Positions 4,113-16,206 of a DNA stretch of 64,000 bases are shown here, in pieces (position 1 is the first letter of the stretch; the number at the start of each line of letters is the position of its first letter). The notes under the pieces are model-generated. The model ran no database searches. It had not been told where the DNA came from and saw only the letters and a program-made list of their open reading frames with translations. Position numbers and translations under genes: made by a program. The stretch comes from Acetobacter aceti NBRC 14818 (GTDB taxonomy: Bacteria > Pseudomonadota > Alphaproteobacteria > Acetobacterales > Acetobacteraceae): contig NZ_AP023410.1 of the NCBI RefSeq assembly GCF_000193495.2, positions 1,550,001 to 1,614,000 of the forward strand, written 5' to 3'.

Positions 4113-5261
4113 ATGACCTGCGATCAGCTCCCTTCTCCGGCTCTCCTGCCGCCGGGCTTCATCGACCTTCTCGCGGCGGATGCCCAGACGGAGGCCAATG
4201 GCACTCAGGCCCTTCTGTCCGTGTTTGCAAGCCACGGATATGAGCGGGTCGCACCGCCGTTGCTGGAGTTCGAGGACACGCTGCTTGGCGGGGCAGGGGC
4301 GGCGCTGGCCGATCAAGCTTTCCGCCTGATGGACCCCGATACACGCCGGATGATGGCGCTGCGTCCGGACATCACGCCGCAAATCGCCCGTATCGCGGCG
4401 ACCCGTCTGCATGATGCGCCACGTCCTCTCCGTCTTTCCTATGCAGGGCAGGCTGTTTTGGTCGGCAACGGCACTGCAGGACAGAATGAACGTCAGATCG
4501 GACAGGCCGGAATCGAGCTGATCGGTCCCGACAGCGCGCAGGCCGACGCCGAGGTGGTGGCTATCGCTGCCGAGGCGCTGGCCCGTGTCGGCATTACCGA
4601 TCTGTCCTTCGATCTCACCATGCCGCTTCTCGCGCCTTCGCTGATCGAGCAGGCTGGTCTACCCGCCGCCACAGTCACTGCGTTGATGCATGCGCTTGAT
4701 CGCAAGGACGCCGCCGCCGTCGCCGAGCATGGTGGCCCGATTGCCGATGTCCTGATCCGGCTGCTCAATGCTGCTGGTGAGGCGGATCAGGCGCTCGCCG
4801 CCCTGCAGGAAGTTGATCTGCCTGAAAAAACACGCGCTTTCAGTGACCGCCTGAGAGACTCGACAGCCGCCATCCGCGCTCGCGTGCCGGGCTGTCAGGT
4901 GACGGTCGATCCGGTCGAATTCCGTGGTTGGAAATATCACACAGGCGTTTGCGTCTCGGTTTACGCACTAGGTTCGTCGGAAGAACTCGGACGCGGTGGC
5001 CGTTATCTGTGCAATGATGACGAGCCAGCCTGCGGCCTGACCCTGCGTCCCAACGCTGTTTTTCGTGTGGCGCCTCGCAGGGCACAGCCACAGCGCGTCT
5101 ATCTGCCGTTCGGCACGGATGAAGCCGTTGGTCGTACGCTTCGTGACAAGGGGCATGTGACCGTTGCGGGTCTCGCTCCTGCCGGAAGTGAAGAAGAAGA
5201 GGCCCGTCGTCTCGCCTGTTCTTTCGTCAGCCGGGATGGCACGCTCGTTCCTGTCAACTGA
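4113..5261 (+). CDS. hisZ: ATP phosphoribosyltransferase regulatory subunit HisZ
   Basis: 382 residues with the class II aminoacyl-tRNA-synthetase-like fold of HisZ: an N-terminal LLPPGFIDLL start, motif-2-like MALRPDITPQIAR, and a truncated C-terminus without an anticodon-binding domain. In bacteria with short-form HisG, HisZ binds HisG and is needed for the first step of histidine synthesis and its feedback control. Position immediately upstream of purA is a common arrangement in Proteobacteria and supports the assignment over histidyl-tRNA synthetase itself. The ATG at 4113 is used; a nearby ATG at 4102 is out of frame. hisG is not in the window. Confidence 0.9.
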   Translation: MTCDQLPSPALLPPGFIDLLAADAQTEANGTQALLSVFASHGYERVAPPLLEFEDTLLGGAGAALADQAFRLMDPDTRRMMALRPDITPQIARIAATRLHDAPRPLRLSYAGQAVLVGNGTAGQNERQIGQAGIELIGPDSAQADAEVVAIAAEALARVGITDLSFDLTMPLLAPSLIEQAGLPAATVTALMHALDRKDAAAVAEHGGPIADVLIRLLNAAGEADQALAALQEVDLPEKTRAFSDRLRDSTAAIRARVPGCQVTVDPVEFRGWKYHTGVCVSVYALGSSEELGRGGRYLCNDDEPACGLTLRPNAVFRVAPRRAQPQRVYLPFGTDEAVGRTLRDKGHVTVAGLAPAGSEEEEARRLACSFVSRDGTLVPVN

Positions 5262-5327: not shown

Positions 5328-6617
5328 ATGTCGAATGTCACCGTGATCGGGACCCAGTGGGGCGACGAGGGCAAAGGCAAGATCGTTGACTGGCTGGCCA
5401 GCCGCGCCGACGTCGTCGTTCGCTTTCAGGGCGGACACAATGCAGGCCACACGCTGGTCGTCGGCGATCAGGTCTACAAGCTGTCCCTGCTGCCGTCCGG
5501 TCTGGTGCGCGGCAAGATCGGCATCATTGGTAATGGCGTGGTCGTCGATCCGCAGGCGCTGCTGTCGGAAATTGCCCGGGTCGTGGCGCAGGGCCTGCCT
5601 GTTTCTCCGAAGACCCTGAAAATCGCCGAAAACGTGCCGCTGATCCTGCCTGTGCATGGCGCTCTGGACCGCGCTCGTGAAGCGGCACGCGGTGACCGCA
5701 AGATCGGCACGACCGGTCGTGGTATCGGTCCGGCTTATGAGGACAAGGTCGCCCGTCGTGCCATTCGTCTGTGCGATCTCGCCGAGCCTGAAACGCTCGA
5801 CTGGAAGCTCGACGAGCTGCTGCTGCACCATAACACCCTGCTCGCTGGTCTCGGAGCCGAGACCTTCGAGAAGGCCGATCTGCTGGCATTCCTGAATGAC
5901 ATCGCTCCCAAGGTTCTGCCTTACATGGCGCCTGTTGCGGACCTGCTGGAAGCCGAGCGCAAGAACGGCAGCAAGATCCTGTTCGAGGGCGCGCAGGCCG
6001 TCATGCTGGACGTGGATCACGGCACCTATCCGTTCGTGACCAGCTCCAACACGGTAGCGTCCAACGCAGGCACAGGTTCCGGCATGGGGCCGAACGCTGC
6101 TGGCTTCGTACTCGGTATCGCCAAGGCCTACACCACCCGTGTCGGCGAAGGGCCGTTCCCGAGCGAACTGTTTGACGAGACCGGTCGTGTGCTCGGTGAA
6201 CGCGGCCATGAATTCGGAACGGTCACGGGGCGTCCGCGTCGCTGTGGCTGGTTCGACGCCGTGCTGGTGCGTCACGCAGCACAGGTCGGCGGCGTCAATG
6301 GTCTGGCTTTGACCAAACTGGACGTGCTCGACGGCCTGGATGAAATCCGGGTCTGCGTTGGCTACGATCTGGACGGCGAAACGATCAAACGCTTCCCCGC
6401 AGGTCCGGCCGCCCAGAGCCGCGTCAAGCCGGTTTACGAGACCCTTGAGGGTTGGAAAGAATCCACGAAGGGCGCTCGTAGCTGGGCCGATCTGCCAGCG
6501 CAGGCTGTCAAATATGTCCGCCGCATCGAGGAGCTGGTCGAAGCTCCTGTGACGCTGCTGTCCACCAGTCCGGAGCGTGACGACACCATCCTGGTGCGTG
6601 ATCCGTTCGATTCCTGA
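5328..6617 (+). CDS. purA: Adenylosuccinate synthetase
   Basis: Converts IMP, aspartate and GTP to adenylosuccinate, the first committed step to AMP. It has 429 residues, normal length. The P-loop GDEGKGK (about 11-17, with the catalytic Asp) and the GGHNAGHT segment (catalytic His) are intact, and the C-terminal GTP-binding part ([13 protein letters not shown]) is present. A GGAGAAG ribosome-binding site lies ahead of the ATG. It follows hisZ by 66 bp; both consume or respond to purine and ATP pools. Confidence 0.97.
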
Positions 6618-6697
6618 GAGAATCACTCCCTTTTATAAGAGTCCGTTAAGAGCTGCCCGCTACCCTTTGCGTATTGTGAAATGCGTAAAGGGCGAGC

Positions 6698-8671
6698 ATG
6701 GCCGGGACGGACGAATTCGGGCAGTCTGAGACAGGCGATAGTCGGAGCCTTACGATCGACGGTCGCTATGTCATTGATCTCGACCAGAAGCTCCCTGATT
6801 TCGTCAACTGCCCTGCCTATCATGTCAAGGATACGGTCTCCCCGACAGCCGAACTCCTTGCCCTGGCGCCAGCACCTCTCCTGCCACCGCACGCCGGCGC
6901 TGCCGTCATCGCCAAGATACGTGCGCCCAATTTGCTGCCGGTCAGGTCATTCAGCGATGCGACCGGTTCGCTCTGGATCCTGTGCGATGCGCCCTCCGGC
7001 AATCCGCTGAGTGACGGCGGCACCTGGACAGAAACCTCTGTTCTTGAACGCGTCATCGTGCCGATTGCGAGCATCCTGCACGCCTATAACGAGGCTGGCG
7101 TCACGCATCGCTCCATCCGTCCCGACAATGTGTTCGATTCAGGCGGCCGCAGCGCTGTATGCCTTGGCCCGGCCATCACAGCCCCACCAGCCTATTTCCA
7201 GCCGGACCGGTTTGAACCGCTGACATCAGCCCTGTGTGAGCCCGCCGGGCGTGGCAGTGGCAGCATAGTGGACGATATTTTTGCTCTTGGAGCCCTTGCC
7301 GCATGGCTGCTGGGCGGCTGTACGCCCTATCGGGATGACGTGCCGGGCGCCCTGCTGGAAGAACGTTTTCAGAAGGGCAGTTTTGCCGTACTGGCCGGGC
7401 ACCTGCCGCTTTCTCTGGATGTGGCTCCTCTGCTCGCGGCCATGCTGTCGGATGACCCGGCTGCCAGACCATCGCCCAGAGATCTGCTGCATGCGGCAGA
7501 CCACAAGGGATATGTTGTACGGCGTAGCGCTGTTGCCACGGCTCCGATCATGCTGGCAACCGTCCGGATCAAGACAGCCCGGGCGCTCGCATGGTACGCT
7601 GCACGGTACAGGAAGGAATTCGCCAGTCTTCTGGTCAGGGGGATTATCGAGCGATGGATGTCCTACGAGCTGGGGATGCCTCAGGCGGCGGCCAGGCTGG
7701 CTCTACTGTCCCGGGACGCTTCTCTGGCTGAAGACGGTACACTCGCTTCTTCCGCGACACTTATGGAAATCATCTCCGTTATCGATCCGGCCATGCCTTT
7801 ATGCTGGGGTGACATATGGTTCTGGCCGGATGCTATCGGTCAACTGCTGACAACCGCGCTGGCAGGGAAAAGTACGACTTCCATTGATCCCTCAATGGCT
7901 GTTTTCGAACTGATCCGTACCGGTCGTCTGGAGAAGTTTGCGCTCGTCACAACTGTGCCCGCACAGGCCGCGGCCTGCGCTGTGGTCCAGAAGGCAGCCG
8001 GACAGGTTTCCATCGAAACCCTGTCAGACATCGATAGACTGCCTTACGTCCTCAACCCTTATCTCCCCTGCCTGTCGCCCCGCTGCCAGAACGATCGTCT
8101 GACGGCGACATGGGCCCTTTTGCAATGGCTTAATGCCGGAGAGGACACGGAGGTCCCCGGGGCGACTGCATTACTTGACAGGCAGATGACCATATTCATG
8201 GTAGTTGCCGCTTTGAGAAGCCGTCTTGTAGAAACATTCAGCGATCTGACTATATCGAAGAACAGCTGGTCTCTGGATCTAGCGCTTCTGGCAAAGGTCC
8301 AGCATCTTTACATGACCGGTCCGCTGAAAGGGATCGGTCGCAAGTTGTTGCCTCATCTGACACCAGACCTGAAGCGGTGGCGTAGTCGCAGCACCAGAAC
8401 ATCCCGCGGAGAGCAGCTTGCTGTTGCTGCTGGTGAAGGCGATCTGGGCCTCATGCAGAAAATTCTAGCTGATCCGCAGGCCCTGCGACGTGATCAGGCT
8501 GCCTATAACGCTGCGCGCAAGCTGGAGAGTAAGCTCAAAGCAGAGAGCGAGCGTCTCGAACATCAGGATACAGACGTGCCCTTGTCCATGAGAAACGAAA
8601 TGATTCGTCTGGCTACGGCCGTTGGTGTCGTGTGCGCCATAGGCTCTCTTTGTGCGGAGATTGTGTTGTGA
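6698..8671 (+). CDS. Tail-anchored protein-kinase-like protein (probable pseudokinase)
   Basis: 657 residues. The N-terminal ~270 residues follow an eukaryotic-type Ser/Thr kinase plan. A catalytic-loop-like THRSIRPDNVF (about 136-146) replaces HRD-LKPxN, so the catalytic Asp is Ser. The DFG position reads CLGP. The helix-F region is recognisable (VDDIFALGALAAWLLGG, about 191-207) and is followed by an ARPSPRDLL motif. No VAIK lysine or glycine loop is clear. The rest is helical and of unknown role. A hydrophobic C-terminal helix (about 634-655) predicts a tail anchor with the bulk in the cytoplasm. The stop overlaps the next gene start (GTGA). The fold is inferred from motifs; lack of catalysis is inferred from the missing residues. 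Partner and pathway are unknown. Confidence 0.7.
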   Translation: MAGTDEFGQSETGDSRSLTIDGRYVIDLDQKLPDFVNCPAYHVKDTVSPTAELLALAPAPLLPPHAGAAVIAKIRAPNLLPVRSFSDATGSLWILCDAPSGNPLSDGGTWTETSVLERVIVPIASILHAYNEAGVTHRSIRPDNVFDSGGRSAVCLGPAITAPPAYFQPDRFEPLTSALCEPAGRGSGSIVDDIFALGALAAWLLGGCTPYRDDVPGALLEERFQKGSFAVLAGHLPLSLDVAPLLAAMLSDDPAARPSPRDLLHAADHKGYVVRRSAVATAPIMLATVRIKTARALAWYAARYRKEFASLLVRGIIERWMSYELGMPQAAARLALLSRDASLAEDGTLASSATLMEIISVIDPAMPLCWGDIWFWPDAIGQLLTTALAGKSTTSIDPSMAVFELIRTGRLEKFALVTTVPAQAAACAVVQKAAGQVSIETLSDIDRLPYVLNPYLPCLSPRCQNDRLTATWALLQWLNAGEDTEVPGATALLDRQMTIFMVVAALRSRLVETFSDLTISKNSWSLDLALLAKVQHLYMTGPLKGIGRKLLPHLTPDLKRWRSRSTRTSRGEQLAVAAGEGDLGLMQKILADPQALRRDQAAYNAARKLESKLKAESERLEHQDTDVPLSMRNEMIRLATAVGVVCAIGSLCAEIVL

Positions 8672-9123
8672 CGGCCTCTGTAGCCAAGGGACAGCGTGGC
8701 TCCCTGACGAAATGGGTCAATGGTCTAGCCTGCGGTGCCGCTCTGGCATGGCTTCCCGGATATTCCCTGCTGATCGGGGTCCTGTTGATCCCGTTGATTG
8801 CTGTCTGCCTTCTGGACAGCAATCGGGGAGAGGTGATGGCCAGAATGATGATGCCTTACGCCTTTGCTGCTCTCGTGCATCCGTTTCATATGTTGTGGAA
8901 CGCGGACGGATCGATGGACGCCGCCGTCATGCTGCTGATGAATCCCATGACCAGTGTTGTCGGCTGGTGTGCAGCTGGAGGCGGCTGGTTTGTGTTTGAA
9001 GTGGCCATTCTGGGGGTGAAACTTACCCGTCAGTTTCAGGTTCGTCAGCGTAAGGCCACCATCGCGAAAGATCTGGCGACGCTGGCGGAAGAATGGGATG
9101 AACAAGTGGCTGAGAGGCCGTAA
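8668..9123 (+). CDS. Small multi-pass membrane protein paired with the pseudokinase
   Basis: 151 residues from the GTG at 8668, which overlaps the pseudokinase stop by 4 bp and has GGAGA at 8656-8660. This is better supported than the in-frame GTG at 8632, which has no ribosome-binding site. Three hydrophobic stretches are visible: about 10-45 (NGLACGAALAWLPGYSLL...), about 58-75, and about 95-120. A basic, helical cytoplasmic tail follows (VRQRKATIAKDLATLAEEW). No family is recognised. Translational coupling suggests a membrane complex with the tail-anchored kinase-like protein. Confidence 0.65.
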   Translation: MTASVAKGQRGSLTKWVNGLACGAALAWLPGYSLLIGVLLIPLIAVCLLDSNRGEVMARMMMPYAFAALVHPFHMLWNADGSMDAAVMLLMNPMTSVVGWCAAGGGWFVFEVAILGVKLTRQFQVRQRKATIAKDLATLAEEWDEQVAERP

Positions 9124-9304: not shown

Positions 9305-10072
9305 GTGATTCACAGGCTTACCGCTGGGGAGAAGTCTGCGAGTGACGTGTTTTTGCTTTCTGAGTGCCAGATGGATCTGATCAGGCCGTATTTTCCTCTG
9401 GCTCACGGGGTTCCACGTGTGGATGACTGTTGTGTTCTGAGCAGGATTGTTTACGTCATCCGTCACGGCCTTCAGTGGAAAGACGCACCGAAAGCCTCTG
9501 GTCCGCAAAAGACTTTATGCAACCGCTTCATCTCTTCGTCGCGCTGACGGAACAGTCAGGACAGTCGAAGAGCCTGATGATTGATGCGACACACCTCAAA
9601 GCGCACAGAACGGTAGCGTCTTTGCTCAAAAAGAGGCTTTTCCCCGCCATATCGGACGAACCAAAGACGGACTGAACTCAAAGCTCATGCTGTATGTGAC
9701 GGTGAGGACCGGCCTGTCCGGCTTCATCTGACTACGGGTCAGGTCAGTGATTTCAAAGAGGCTGATGTTCTGCTGGAGAAGCTTCCCAATGAAACAGAAG
9801 AAGTTCTCGGAGACAAGGGATACGACAGTAACCGGATCAGGCAATTACTCGCAGGACGGAATATCACGGCCTGTATCCCGTCGAAGAAGAACTGGAAATC
9901 AAGGCCGCCTTACAACTGGCATCTGTATAAAAAGCGCCACCTCATCGAAAACATGTTCGCAAAGCTCAAGGACTGGCAACGGGGGCAACCCGATACGATC
10001 GGAGCGCTCATTACCTTCATGTCCACTATCCAAATCGCAGCAACCGTCTTCTGGCTAAAGAAAAGAGGTTGA
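9305..10072 (+). mobile_element. Degenerate IS5-family element (IS1031/IS12528-like), transposase broken by frameshifts
   Basis: Pieces of one IS5-type DDE transposase are read in successive frames: the N-terminus (LSECQMDLIRPYFP, VIRHGLQWKDAP) at 9305-9547; the first-Asp region (LMIDATHLKAHR) at about 9575-9640 in another frame; then the second-Asp region (LNSKLHAVCDG-like) and the C-terminal Glu region (DKGYDSNRIRQLL, HLIENMFAKLKDW, ATVFWLKKRG) ending at the TGA at 10070-10072. At least three frame changes and a short deletion are needed, so the enzyme is dead. The right side abuts a TonB-receptor remnant. Exact inverted repeats could not be fixed. Confidence 0.8.
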
Positions 10073-11664: not shown

Positions 11665-12708
11665 GTGACTAACGAAACACGCGTTCGGTATTATCCCGAA
11701 GAAATGCTCAAACACCGTGTGCAGACGCTGCTTGTTGAGACTGGCGCACGGGCTTCCGACGCTGCCGAGACGGCGCGGGCGCTGCTGCATGCCTCGAGGA
11801 TCGGCGTGGACAGTCATGGGGTCCGGCTGGCGGCCTATTATGCCTCACTGTTGCGGTCAGGCGGCCTCAACGCAGCGCCGTCTCCACTCTACACACGGAC
11901 GGCTTTCGCGACAGGACGGCTGGATGCCGACAGTGGCCTTGCTCATCCCGCCTGTTACCGCGCCATGTCCGAGGCCATGATACTGGCACGGGAAGCCGGT
12001 ATCGGCGCTGTCGGCGTTCACCGTTCCACACATTTCGGGGCGGCAGGCGCCTACGCGGTCGAAGCGGCGCGACAGGGCATGATCGGTCTGGTTGTGAGCA
12101 ACTCGGATTCGGCTGTCTCCCTGTTCTCGGGCGTCGCCCCGTTTCATGGCACCAACCCGATTGCCGCAGCCGCTCCGGTGCGTGATTCCGAACCCTGGCT
12201 GCTCGACATGGCGACCTCGTCCATTCCGTTCAACCGCGTGAAACTTTACGAGGCTCTCGGCATTGATCTGCCCGCAGACGTTGCGCTGGATGAGCATGGC
12301 CAGCCGACGCGGAACCCACGGCACGCCTCTTTCCTCCAGCCGCTCGGCGGAGAAACGTTCGGCTTCAAGGGGGCGGCTCTGGCCAGTCTCGTCACCATTC
12401 TTGCAGCCGTAATGACGGGAGCCGACACGGACCCTGTGATGGTCGGCACAGACGCCGCGCAAACGGCAGAAGCACGCCAGAATGTCGGTCACTTTGTCAT
12501 CGCCATCGACCCGGAACGCTTTATCGGACGAGCCAGCTATGATGCGGCGATGACGCGATACCTGAACCTGCTGCGTGCGGGGCCATCCATCGATTCCGGG
12601 CATCCTGTTCTGGCGCCGGGCGATCGGGAGTGGCAGGAGTCCCGACGTCGTCAGGAGACCGGCATTCCGGTCGATCCGGAAACCCGGACAAGTCTTGGTT
12701 TGCCCTGA
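11665..12708 (+). CDS. Ldh2-family NAD(P)-dependent oxidoreductase (malate/lactate/ureidoglycolate dehydrogenase type)
   Basis: 347 residues with the family layout: an N-terminal helical segment with SRIGVDSHGVRL, the catalytic-region STHFGAAGAYAVEAA with its conserved His, SNSDSAVSLFSG, and FHGTNPIAAAAPV. These enzymes oxidise 2-hydroxy acids such as malate, lactate, sulfolactate or ureidoglycolate with NAD(P). It starts with GTG directly after the symporter stop; the pair suggests uptake and oxidation of one hydroxy- or dicarboxylic acid. A rho-independent terminator follows at 12719. The substrate cannot be told from sequence alone. Confidence 0.85.
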   Translation: MTNETRVRYYPEEMLKHRVQTLLVETGARASDAAETARALLHASRIGVDSHGVRLAAYYASLLRSGGLNAAPSPLYTRTAFATGRLDADSGLAHPACYRAMSEAMILAREAGIGAVGVHRSTHFGAAGAYAVEAARQGMIGLVVSNSDSAVSLFSGVAPFHGTNPIAAAAPVRDSEPWLLDMATSSIPFNRVKLYEALGIDLPADVALDEHGQPTRNPRHASFLQPLGGETFGFKGAALASLVTILAAVMTGADTDPVMVGTDAAQTAEARQNVGHFVIAIDPERFIGRASYDAAMTRYLNLLRAGPSIDSGHPVLAPGDREWQESRRRQETGIPVDPETRTSLGLP

Positions 12709-12718
12709 ATTTTCTGAC

Positions 12719-12744
12719 AGCCGGATTTCTTCTCCGGCTTTTTT
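12719..12744 (+). terminator. Rho-independent terminator after the symporter/dehydrogenase pair
   Basis: AGCCGG (12719-12724) pairs with CCGGCT (12734-12739) around a 9-nt loop and is followed by a run of six T. It closes the operon that begins at 10348. Confidence 0.85.
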
Positions 12745-12797
12745 GTCAGGATCGCCATAATTTACCAGAAAATTACCTGCTGTTTGTAACTTCTCCT

Positions 12798-13643
12798 GTG
12801 ATCCGCCTTACCGGGAGAGCTTTTTTGCCTGTTATACCTGTTTCTGGTCCCCCGGAGACCACCCACCGCACCACGTCGCATCTGACAGGCACGCACACGA
12901 GACAAAAGACCGAGGCCAGCTTCAGTATCTTACCCCGTTTCTCTCTCTCGACATTAGCGGTTGCAGGCGGCGATCTCTGTCCTCCTCCGACCTTTTCGAC
13001 TGGACGCACGACACTCCGACGCCGCCACAAGGAGCCCGTCTGGCTGCCGCTCATATCGGAAGGATGCAGGATAGCGGCTAAATTTCCGCCAGATTGCCGT
13101 CTGGCCCTGCCTGTCGAGGCTGCCGACACGTTCCCGGATGATCTGCTGACCCATCTGGCCAGCCTCCTTTCCGACAATCAGCTAGAAACCTCGAGGCTGG
13201 ATTTTGAATTTACGGAAACGAGCCTCGCCATTGATAACGAGATTCTGATTTATTCACTCGCCGCGCTGCGGGATGCCGGGGCCGGACTTGTGCTTTCTGG
13301 TTTTGGAACGGGTCTGACCAGCCTGTCCCTTCTGCGGGACAGAAGCTTTTCCGGGCTGCTGACGGCCGTAAAGCTGGACCGGCATCTGTTCTGTCATGAT
13401 GACCCGGCGCACCTTCAGGCAGGCCAGAGCATTGCCCGCGCTGTGGTGCAGTTGGGTAGCGATTTTGGCCTGAACACACGCGCCGAAGGCGTGGACACGC
13501 CTGAGACACTTCATTTCCTGCAGAGCATCGGCTGTCAGGAAGGGCGGGGAAACTGTCTTGGAAAACCGCAGTCTCTGACGGACTTTCTGAAAGACCTCAA
13601 GCCAGCCCGGTCAGGTGTGAAGAAAAGAAAACGCACATCGTGA
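12798..13643 (+). CDS. Degenerate, N-terminally short EAL-domain protein
   Basis: The C-terminal ~190 residues match the second half of the EAL c-di-GMP phosphodiesterase fold: LDFEFTETSLAI (for LELEITES), SGFGTGLTSLSLL (for DDFGTGYSSL, both metal-binding Asp lost), VKLDR, and TRAEGVDTPETLHFL (for AEGVET). The EAL signature itself and the first barrel strands are missing, and residues 1-80 look random. Catalysis is not expected; the protein could bind c-di-GMP or be a decaying gene. The start is uncertain: the frame is open from 12630, but that would span the terminator at 12719-12744, so the GTG at 12798 is a guess. Confidence 0.5.
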   Translation: MIRLTGRAFLPVIPVSGPPETTHRTTSHLTGTHTRQKTEASFSILPRFSLSTLAVAGGDLCPPPTFSTGRTTLRRRHKEPVWLPLISEGCRIAAKFPPDCRLALPVEAADTFPDDLLTHLASLLSDNQLETSRLDFEFTETSLAIDNEILIYSLAALRDAGAGLVLSGFGTGLTSLSLLRDRSFSGLLTAVKLDRHLFCHDDPAHLQAGQSIARAVVQLGSDFGLNTRAEGVDTPETLHFLQSIGCQEGRGNCLGKPQSLTDFLKDLKPARSGVKKRKRTS

Positions 13644-13689: not shown

Positions 13690-14988
13690 ATGAAAAACGG
13701 CTCCTCCTCTCCTTCTGTCCGGCTGGGCATCGATTTCGGCACAACGAACAGCGTCATCGTTCTACGAGACGAGGACGGCGACACGCGTACCGTGCGCTTT
13801 CCAACGCCGGGAGGAAACACGGCGGATACATGCCGCACGCTTCTGGCGCTGTGGCAGGAACTGACGGGCGGACGACGTCTGACCGAACGCGCCGTGGGAG
13901 AAGAGGCCGTTGAGGCGTATCTCGACGATCCGACCGAAACGCGGCTCATCATGTCGATGAAGTCCTATCTGGCGCAGGCCAGCTTCCGGGAGACCCAGCT
14001 TTTCGGTCAGCGGGTTCCGCTGGAAACGCTGGTCGCCTCCTTCCTGCAGGAACTGATGAAGCTGGCGAAACTGGCACCGCAGGATTGCGCCGTGACAGTC
14101 GGACGGCCGGTGCGTTTTGTCGGTGACAATGCCGATGACGATCTCGGCGAAGCCCGACTGCGCGCCAGTCTTGCCGAAGCCGGTTTCCCCGAGATTTCCA
14201 TCATGCTCGAACCGGAAGCCGCCGGATGGAAGTTCGCCCATCGCCTCAATCATCCGGCGACAGTGCTGGTGGGAGACTTCGGCGGCGGCACGAGCGACTT
14301 CTCGGTTCTGCGGTTCGAGCCGGGAACGGCCCAGCCCACACAGGCGCTGGGTTATGCAGGCGTGGGGCTGGCCGGGGATCAGTTCGACACACGGATCATC
14401 GACCATGTGGTCGCACCGTTTCTGGGTCGCGACTGCACCTTCCGCATCATGGGCGGTGAGCCGCTTCCCGTGCCGATCGAGTGGTACACTTCCCTTGCCC
14501 GCTGGCATCGTCTCTCACTGATGCGGACTCCGCGCATTCTGAACGAGATTGCCGAAGTCGCTCGTACGGCCTCCCAGCCTGAACGACTGATGAACTTGGT
14601 CGAACTGATCCGCGAGCAGAACGGGCAGCTTCTTTATAATGCCGTCTCCGCCGCGAAGCGGACCCTGTCTTCCGAAGACAGCGCCGTGCTGCGCTTCTCG
14701 CAAAAGGGTCTCACAATCGAGGAGACAATCCAGCGCGCTGATTTCGAACGCTGGATCGCGCCCGATCTGGCACAGTTCGGAGACGCCATTGACCTTGCCA
14801 TTGAGCGCTCGAACCTGACGCCGGATCAGATCGACCGTGTGTTCCTCACCGGCGGCACCTCGTTTGTGCCAGCCGTGCGGGAGCTGTTCATCCAGCGGTT
14901 TGGCGCGGACAAGGTTGAACTGGGTGGCGAATTCGTCTCCGTGGCGGAGGGGCTGGCGCTGGCCAACCCTCTCGCTCTGGCGGCCTGA
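13690..14988 (+). CDS. Hsp70-family ATPase without substrate-binding domain (YegD-like)
   Basis: 432 residues, about the length of an Hsp70 nucleotide-binding domain alone. The phosphate-1 motif LGIDFGTTNSVI (about 11-22), phosphate-2 motif VLVGDFGGGTSDFS and adenosine motif VFLTGGTSFVPAVRELF are intact, so ATP binding is likely. The peptide-binding beta-sandwich and lid of DnaK are absent, as in E. coli YegD. The cytoplasmic role is unknown; chaperone-like or signalling ATPase activity is possible. It stands alone, 46 bp after the EAL remnant. Confidence 0.85.
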   Translation: MKNGSSSPSVRLGIDFGTTNSVIVLRDEDGDTRTVRFPTPGGNTADTCRTLLALWQELTGGRRLTERAVGEEAVEAYLDDPTETRLIMSMKSYLAQASFRETQLFGQRVPLETLVASFLQELMKLAKLAPQDCAVTVGRPVRFVGDNADDDLGEARLRASLAEAGFPEISIMLEPEAAGWKFAHRLNHPATVLVGDFGGGTSDFSVLRFEPGTAQPTQALGYAGVGLAGDQFDTRIIDHVVAPFLGRDCTFRIMGGEPLPVPIEWYTSLARWHRLSLMRTPRILNEIAEVARTASQPERLMNLVELIREQNGQLLYNAVSAAKRTLSSEDSAVLRFSQKGLTIEETIQRADFERWIAPDLAQFGDAIDLAIERSNLTPDQIDRVFLTGGTSFVPAVRELFIQRFGADKVELGGEFVSVAEGLALANPLALAA

Positions 14989-15039: not shown

Positions 15040-16206
15040 ATGAACGGGGTGAAACTCTCGCTTATGAAACGGCTGCTTCTCGTCACCTGTCTGTCCCTGC
15101 CACTTGCGCTGGCGACATTCTCCCCGTCCGCGCTGGCGGTTCCCATGCCGGAAAAGCCGGAAGCGACGGCGGCTGATCTGACACCCGCCGTGACGTCGTC
15201 CTCCCAGATCTGGGAGTCCGTGATTGCTCTCCCCGATGGCAGGCTGGTGCTGGAAGCGCCGCGCTGGCTGGGTAATCCGAACCCGCAACTCAGCATCGCA
15301 ACAGTCGGTGGCATGCCCGCGCCCTACCCTGATGCGGACTGGAATGCGACGGAAGGGGATCCGGCCAAACGGTTCGTGGCGCTGACCAGCATGACGCGGG
15401 CAGCTGATGGCACACTCTGGCTTGTCGATAGCGGCGTTCCGGATCGGGAGGCCAAGCCGGAAGCGCCTGCCAAGCTGATTCAGATCGATCCCGCCACAGG
15501 TCAGGTCAAACGCTCTTTCCCCGTTTCAGCCGATGCGCTGCGAGACGGCAGCATCTTGGCAGGCATCGCCGTGCATGAGCAGACGGCCTATGTCGCGGAT
15601 TCGGGTGTGCCGGGGATTCTGGTCATCGACCTTGAGAGTGGTGTCGCCCGACGTTTTCTCGATCACGTCGAAGGGCTGACCGCCAAGCGTCCGATCGTCA
15701 CCCCCTCGGGCGAGGTCAAGGCACGGGATGGGCGACCACTGGCCATTGACGCCACCCTTGTCGCCATCAGCCCGGATGGTCAGTGGCTGTATGTGCAGTC
15801 CTATTGTGGCCCGCTTTATCGCATCGCCACGCGCCTGTTCGACGATCCGGATTCGACGAACACCGCCTTACAGGAAAGCGCCACGCTCTGGTATAAAACC
15901 CGTGCGCTGGGCGGACTTACGGTCGGTCCGGATGGCACGCTGTACTGGTCGGACGTCACCACGGGCAGCATCGACAGCTACACGCCGGGACGGATTCCGC
16001 ATCACCTGATCACCGATCCCCGTCTGAAATGGCCGGGCGGTTTGTCCCTGTCCACGACCCCGTCTGGCAACACGCTTTTCGTGCCAGCCGCGCAACTCGA
16101 TCAGGCCGCACGCTTTCAGAATGGACAGACGACGGTGCAGTGGCCTGTGACCGTTTACAGCTTCCATGTTCCCGAAGACGCGACTTCTGACGTTCTTCGC
16201 AAATAG
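15040..16206 (+). CDS. Exported beta-propeller protein (major royal jelly / SMP-30-like family)
   Basis: 388 residues with a clear Sec signal peptide (MKRLLLVTCLSLPLALA...SALA, cleavage near residue 33). The mature part has repeated blades with motifs of the MRJP/yellow and gluconolactonase-like groups (DGTLWLVDSG, TAYVADSGVPGILVIDLESG, LAIDATLVAISPDG, GGLTVGPDGTLYWSD). Such periplasmic proteins may bind or hydrolyse sugar lactones; acetic acid bacteria make these by periplasmic oxidation, which fits but is inference. An in-frame ATG at 15064 would give a shorter, also plausible signal peptide. Confidence 0.75.
   Translation: MNGVKLSLMKRLLLVTCLSLPLALATFSPSALAVPMPEKPEATAADLTPAVTSSSQIWESVIALPDGRLVLEAPRWLGNPNPQLSIATVGGMPAPYPDADWNATEGDPAKRFVALTSMTRAADGTLWLVDSGVPDREAKPEAPAKLIQIDPATGQVKRSFPVSADALRDGSILAGIAVHEQTAYVADSGVPGILVIDLESGVARRFLDHVEGLTAKRPIVTPSGEVKARDGRPLAIDATLVAISPDGQWLYVQSYCGPLYRIATRLFDDPDSTNTALQESATLWYKTRALGGLTVGPDGTLYWSDVTTGSIDSYTPGRIPHHLITDPRLKWPGGLSLSTTPSGNTLFVPAAQLDQAARFQNGQTTVQWPVTVYSFHVPEDATSDVLRK

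Follow-up and report, generated by a model that had tools for sequence, protein, structure and literature searches.

According to the sections of a 2025 review on which we draw here (PMC12599244), a bacterial pseudokinase is one in which at least one of the three catalytic residues is replaced and for which no activity is known, and few such proteins have any known function. The same sections describe EssB/YukC of the type VII secretion b system as a non-catalytic recruiting hub within a membrane complex (PMC12599244). The pseudokinase considered here, K, is encoded together with a small membrane protein, M, in Acetobacter aceti NBRC 14818, within what we call the window, i.e., the whole stretch of 64,000 nucleotides that was analysed (contig NZ_AP023410.1, positions 1,550,001 to 1,614,000). 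Its features, in window coordinates, are as follows:

4113..5261, + strand: hisZ, conserved upstream neighbour (context)
5328..6617, + strand: purA, conserved upstream neighbour of K (context)
6687..6692, + strand: AAAGGG, likely ribosome site of K, 5 nt 5′ of the ATG
6698..8671, + strand: K, predicted tail-anchored pseudokinase of 657 aa, open frame from ATG 6698 to TGA 8671
6752..7522, + strand: kinase-like domain of K, ~residues 19-275, from the profile and alignment to kinases, boundaries approximate
7106..7129, + strand: catalytic loop HRSIRPDN of K, residues 137-144, with Ser instead of the HRD-Asp and Asn144 kept
7163..7174, + strand: LGPA at the DFG place of K, residues 156-159, with Pro158 at the DFG-Asp position
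7523..8557, + strand: helical middle region of K, ~residues 276-620, boundaries approximate
8609..8665, + strand: C-terminal hydrophobic helix of K, residues 638-656, predicted tail anchor (hydropathy)
8656..8659, + strand: GGAG, likely ribosome site of M within the 3′ end of K, 8 nt 5′ of the GTG
8668..8671, + strand: GTGA overlap of the K stop and the M start
8668..9123, + strand: M, small multi-pass membrane protein of 151 aa with a basic start and a charged helical end with EEW

The mechanical list of open reading frames starts M at 8632 (163 aa); on the family alignment and the ribosome site, we favour the GTG at 8668 as its true start, and the overlap by GTGA noticed in the initial annotation is borne out at that point. 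Further same-strand frames upstream of K include some that we take to be pheS- and pheT-like, and a promoter and terminator scan gave nothing exceeding shuffles. On its 3′ side M adjoins an IS4/5-type transposase broken across several frames (9305-10058, + strand; PF13340 match on 9305-9544, E 2e-10), and the gene order beyond M is unlike that of the near relatives L031-L033. Farther along, also on the + strand, are found: an EAL domain protein (12630-13643, matched part from residue 145), whose true start probably lies later, since its frame as listed shares bases with the Ldh_2 gene before it; an Hsp70/actin-fold protein of 432 aa (13690-14988) resembling NCBIfam PRK11678 (E 4e-43), which at 148 bits against a cut-off of 331 is a divergent member; and a Major-royal-jelly-protein-like protein (15040-16206; PF03022, E 2e-10).

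Like K, EssB/YukC is a cytosolic pseudokinase that has lost all three motifs and bears a transmembrane segment, and within the cited sections of the review it is the best functional parallel for K (PMC12599244). The two differ in that EssB/YukC belongs to a Firmicutes secretion system (PMC12599244), whereas K is alphaproteobacterial, lies beside purA and rpoH, and has a helical region of ~340 aa before its tail and one small partner. K is thus set apart by context, its neighbours being hisZ, purA and rpoH rather than a type VII secretion b locus, and EssB/YukC is not named among the best 60 of the 633 solved-structure matches of the K profile.

By the key features tested, K also fits none of the ActPs1-3, GLW, CP1, DYD and DLHK groups, as these are characterized in the sections of the 2025 review drawn on here (PMC12599244). 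The residue counts refer to 90 K proteins, 47 of Acetobacteraceae and 43 other, which were picked by match score and size of contig and are not a random sample; L031-L033, included among them, are near relatives of the window K, and the 47 leave out L029 (whose contig stops inside K, with no M found) as well as shorter first versions of L002-L015, L017-L024, L027 and L030. The GLW pseudokinases resemble K in being proteobacterial, in the hydrophobic β3-Lys place of many members and in the transmembrane region after the kinase domain; however, GLW there replaces HRD (PMC12599244), whereas in K the His and Arg are mostly kept and the Asp is replaced, and the GLW motif occurs in 0/90 K proteins. 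The DLHK proteins, with kinase, helicase and nuclease domains, share an Arg after HRDL with L146 and L147, two loci found by the K profile, but keep the HRD-Asp and have no membrane regions (PMC12599244), unlike K, which has this Asp in 1/90 proteins and a tail. CP1 is marked by a COG3899 domain and the lack of a transmembrane region; the hydrophobic tail is found in all 47 Acetobacteraceae K proteins, and a search for a second Pfam domain in 40 K members yielded nothing beyond weak single matches. DYD and ActPs1-3 belong to Actinobacteria or Firmicutes, with a β3 Arg in DYD and ActPs2, and the alphaproteobacterial K, with Arg at the VAIK place in 8/90 proteins, is separated from them by clade and, as regards DYD and ActPs2, by this residue. 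Fused to a flippase, the pseudokinase of MviN binds FhaA. It is described as a C-terminal, membrane-linked bacterial pseudokinase (ActPs3), in these respects like K, and as without ATP binding; unlike K it is actinobacterial and has deletions in the activation loop (PMC12599244). An unnamed branch of the published bacterial kinase atlas may already hold the K family; a literature search on the K–M family found no paper on it among the matches listed.

The head, helical region and tail of K

Pfam Pkinase matches the window K alone weakly (E 0.007, below the cut-off), and it matches 40 of the 40 scanned family members at E<=0.1, the best at 1.5e-9. The family profile in turn significantly matches kinases among the solved structures (best E 4.7e-12), which places the family in the protein kinase superfamily by descent. 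It is on these sequence profiles that the kinase fold of K rests, because a structure prediction from three sequences reached a pLDDT of just 33.9, too poor for a fold search.

The HRD-Asp survives in a single protein (L072); in the others its place is mostly taken by A, S, G or N. The DFG-Asp is present in 16/90 proteins, and D or E stands there in 37/90; outside Acetobacteraceae the position is acidic in 33/43 (D in 15, E in 18), and within Acetobacteraceae it is D or E in 4/47. Lys occurs at the VAIK place in 3/90 proteins (L066, L117 and L120, all without the HRD-Asp) in the register A55-x-57, which is the better fit to VAIK, and in 0/90 in the β3 column set by the active relative L143, other references aligning poorly there. 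The set typical of a canonical Hanks-type Ser/Thr kinase (β3 Lys, HRD-Asp and DFG-Asp) is complete in 0/90 proteins in either Lys register, and the window K has none of the three residues; with at least one of them replaced and no activity known, K falls within the bacterial pseudokinases as defined above. The catalytic-loop Asn is kept in 85/90 proteins. The initial annotation had read the window protein as retaining the kinase plan with Ser for the catalytic Asp (HRS) and no DFG, a reading that stands and that, as to the catalytic loss, extends to the family; its suggestion that K would not be a phosphorylating enzyme gains support from this loss and from the pairing with M. We infer an early loss of the HRD-Asp and the Lys, followed in Acetobacteraceae by that of the acidic residue at the DFG position. 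Library matches to MAD6, LanL, PD-T4-6 and MkoA, covering parts of residues 68-271 of the window K, are all kinase-type, and a defence or lantibiotic role for K is unsupported.

In the family alignment, Q168, E173, G186, D193 and G198 are near-invariant between the activation segment and helix F, as are W320, P367, R447, Y450, C458, S460, D494 and Q535 in the helical region. These residues point to a putative binding surface. Within the helical region are two weakly similar modules of ~95 aa (285-375 and 372-468), of which the second closes with LNPYLPCLSP. They align in register (hhalign E 4e-4, probability 34%), unlike the remaining internal pairs tested. Residues 638-656 are hydrophobic (mean 2.09), and a hydrophobic tail recurs in the 47 Acetobacteraceae proteins at a threshold of 1.3 and in 40 of the 43 others at 1.6; the C-terminal helix that the initial annotation took for an anchor is thus supported as a predicted tail anchor.

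Outside the class, kinases with intact HRD and DFG (L143-L145) are built like K, with a similar helical region behind the kinase domain, and part of that region is common to both; the alignment falls within positions 15-461 of the 682 of the K profile. Unlike at K, the M profile finds no match at the loci of these three kinases. The shared architecture suggests an active kinase of this type as the origin of K. The active relative at L145 adjoins proteins that by eye are PP2C phosphatase-, FHA- and formylglycine-type-like. The proteins of L146 and L147 exceed 2000 aa and combine a kinase-like domain (Pkinase) and a portion of the helical region of K with DUF4011, AAA_11/AAA_12 and MTES_1575; from motif resemblance alone, they are perhaps of the DLHK type.

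M and its pairing with K

In keeping with the initial annotation, which had called the product of the next gene a multi-pass membrane protein, M is hydrophobic over a long stretch (~17-46) and more weakly so near 61-73 and 93-119, and it carries positive charge at its start, near 51-60 and at 121-140. From this pattern of hydropathy and charge, M probably has four helices, its two ends both lying inside; a model of low confidence (pLDDT 57.5) has helices at 4-27, 32-49, 54-80, 83-90, 93-102 and 105-149. A search for a named family returned no match above a curated cut-off common to the M family: no Pfam family matched more than 6/41 or more than 1/52 members, and no NCBIfam family more than 1/52, all weakly, and there was no match in PDB.

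M follows K in 47/47 chosen Acetobacteraceae loci. The gap lies between -10 and +10 in 46 of them and is +49 in the remaining one, the M start being taken as the start codon closest to the K stop, which favours small gaps. Across the K genes examined overall, a wider M profile, A5, finds M adjacent in 84/86, a count that, like the co-occurrence counts for the class given below, includes 38 non-Acetobacteraceae M sequences; these were chosen partly as a hydrophobic frame after K and therefore match A5 by construction. The profile built from Acetobacteraceae M sequences alone recovers M in 37/40 loci outside the family, missing L105 (whose M sequence is contained in A5), L121 and L122, and finds M immediately after K in three Azospirillum records that contributed to no profile (E ~1e-21). 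Staying together in related genomes was the test that the initial annotation had set for the two genes, and they pass it. Two K genes are exceptions: that of L121 (genome G599) has its M on a different contig, and that of L122, which is a second copy, has no M. Genomes G599 and G515 carry K and M on separate contigs, both intact and far from the ends; the two are also on separate contigs in G467, G328 and G448, but there the contigs are short (6-39 kb).

The usual order is hisZ-purA-K-M facing rpoH, with purA <=600 bp upstream in at least 55/86 K genes and a converging rpoH downstream in at least 43/86. Azospirillum thermophilum illustrates it with a row of genes named ATP phosphoribosyltransferase regulatory subunit, adenylosuccinate synthase, serine/threonine protein kinase, hypothetical protein and RpoH, the hypothetical protein after the kinase-named gene being M by the Acetobacteraceae profile. 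On a replicon of Azospirillum ramasamyi the K–M unit lies away from purA, and since the pair also occurs in this way, there is no support for linking its role to purA or hisZ. At L087, L090 and L101 the whole unit is duplicated in tandem as K-M-K-M, and some genomes (e.g., G432, G532 and G613) have two K matches and one M. G312 has three extra copies of M (L131, 6983-7426; L133, 6932-7540; L132, 6962-7522 in its minus-strand coordinates), whose neighbours are unrelated genes and around which 14 kb contain no match to the K profile; M may have partners besides K. Judged by eye, the neighbours of M genes without an adjoining K have no common function.

Distribution and selection

The window genome has one K, with close relatives in Acetobacter sicerae (90%) and an Acetobacter MAG (94%). 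In the genus of the window, K is found in 15/49 genomes and M in those very 15; one of them, G1040, has K split over two frames next to an intact M, and the weak K-profile matches of G1044 and G1077 are taken as other kinases. G117, a 2.6 Mb genome of this genus, has only K fragments, one with a stop: the stretch C46:38386-38753 is a relic with an in-frame TAG, which is a loss in progress, and its weak M-profile match on another contig (E 7.8e-4) is taken as chance. In Acetobacteraceae at large, K matches occur in 125/299 genomes and 57/102 genera; nine of the 125 have weak matches only (E above 1e-6), which are probably other kinases or, in G117, the relic.

The initial annotation had pointed to Acetobacteraceae as the place to look for conservation of the pair; it is indeed kept there, but the family is much wider, as the K profile matches 134/385 alphaproteobacterial genomes in 99/277 genera, most over nearly the whole length. 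The frames of the class-wide matches listed are without stops, genomes under 2 Mb included. A draw of 398 genomes from the phylum contains 24 matches, of which 16 are alphaproteobacterial and whole-length (one in two pieces), one is alphaproteobacterial and partial, and seven are partial and outside the class. Seven records of a plasmid collection match K, five of them over >=80%, all Azospirillum; two of these name K a serine/threonine protein kinase, a label that is very likely wrong as to activity.

Both genes are found in 131 of the 385 alphaproteobacterial genomes, K only in three, M only in two and neither in 249, which gives a phi of 0.97; this value is inflated by shared descent, the genomes being non-independent and ~36 of them having supplied M profile sequences. 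The three genomes with K only (G302, G305 and G361) have weak matches, E 1e-10 to 1e-13, with scores that suggest other kinases, and those with M only are G329, with a fragment at a contig edge, and G343, which is 75% complete. Copy numbers of K and M are lower bounds, the best few candidates having been scored per genome.

Against three near relatives, K has a dN of 0.031-0.058 and a dS of 0.40-0.81 (dN/dS ~0.07-0.08), and M a dN of 0.018-0.078 and a dS of 0.21-0.65 (dN/dS ~0.09-0.12). The K–M pair is old and under purifying selection, and its arrangement, conserved in length and order as well, is more than chance. The distances of K and M remain correlated given those of purA and hisZ (partial rank r 0.61, 56 loci, p 0.001), both in Acetobacteraceae (0.47, n=35, p 0.001) and in the others (0.30, n=21, p 0.006). 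However, K also correlates with hisZ given purA and M (0.57 in Acetobacteraceae, 0.30 overall), so that this test is supportive rather than decisive, and part of the K–M signal may be shared history.

Possible roles of the K–M module

We consider it rather probable that K and M constitute a membrane-bound, non-catalytic adaptor or sensor module; the initial annotation had suggested a membrane scaffold or sensor, and its interpretation as a whole is partly supported. The kinase-like head and the helical region of K would lie on the cytoplasmic side, and the C-terminal helix would hold the protein in the inner membrane, where it would touch the helix bundle of M. The head would no longer transfer phosphate; instead, the stretch from the activation segment to helix F, along with the helical region and its LNPxLPCLSP motif, would bind a cytosolic client or ligand, and M would anchor the complex and pass its state along or across the membrane.

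A narrower sensor, in which the pocket of K binds a nucleotide or metal without phosphate transfer and such binding alters the K–M complex, would accord with the loop Asn of 85/90 proteins and with the acidic DFG-Asp position in 33/43 K proteins outside Acetobacteraceae; we regard it as unlikely in view of the Lys at the VAIK place in just 3/90, the Pro of the window K at the DFG-Asp position, and D or E there in 4/47 Acetobacteraceae proteins. It is less likely still that K performs other chemistry in the kinase fold, after the precedents of SelO (AMPylation) and SidJ (glutamylation) among bacterial pseudokinases: both keep the Lys and the DFG-type Asp, as given in Table 1 of the review, among the parts drawn on here (PMC12599244), as against 0/90 K proteins with all three residues and a window K with none.

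Comparably improbable is that K, as a dead relative of active kinases of the same architecture, regulates an active Ser/Thr kinase in trans. The kinase domain and the part of the helical region shared with L143-L145 would suit such a role, as would the PP2C- and FHA-like proteins, so judged by eye, beside L145; yet across 83 clustered loci the neighbours that recur are M, hisZ, purA, rpoH and some further clusters, and no second kinase cluster appears among the 45 clusters listed, most of them without a name. That the pair is a decaying remnant without function is hardly credible: its absence from 33/49 genomes of the genus, the relic of G117 and the split K of G1040 could be read in this way, but it is contradicted by the dN/dS of ~0.07-0.08 and by the stop-free frames of the listed class-wide matches, genomes under 2 Mb included.

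Extending the adaptor or sensor module to the history of the class, we tentatively offer as a possibility an old membrane hub of the Alphaproteobacteria. Its pseudokinase would have arisen early in the class from an active kinase with the architecture that K still shows, would have acquired a tail anchor and M as its dedicated small partner, and would persist even in 1-2 Mb genomes, where the hub would organise an envelope process in the way that EssB does for secretion. K and M are not always partnered one to one, as indicated by the extra M copies of G312, the genomes with two K and one M, and the K without M at L122; a further point against the module is the split K beside the intact M of G1040. 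K–M is a two-gene unit with a clear partner, kept in small genomes and patchy in one genus (15/49), and for these reasons it is amenable to deletion, complementation and purification.
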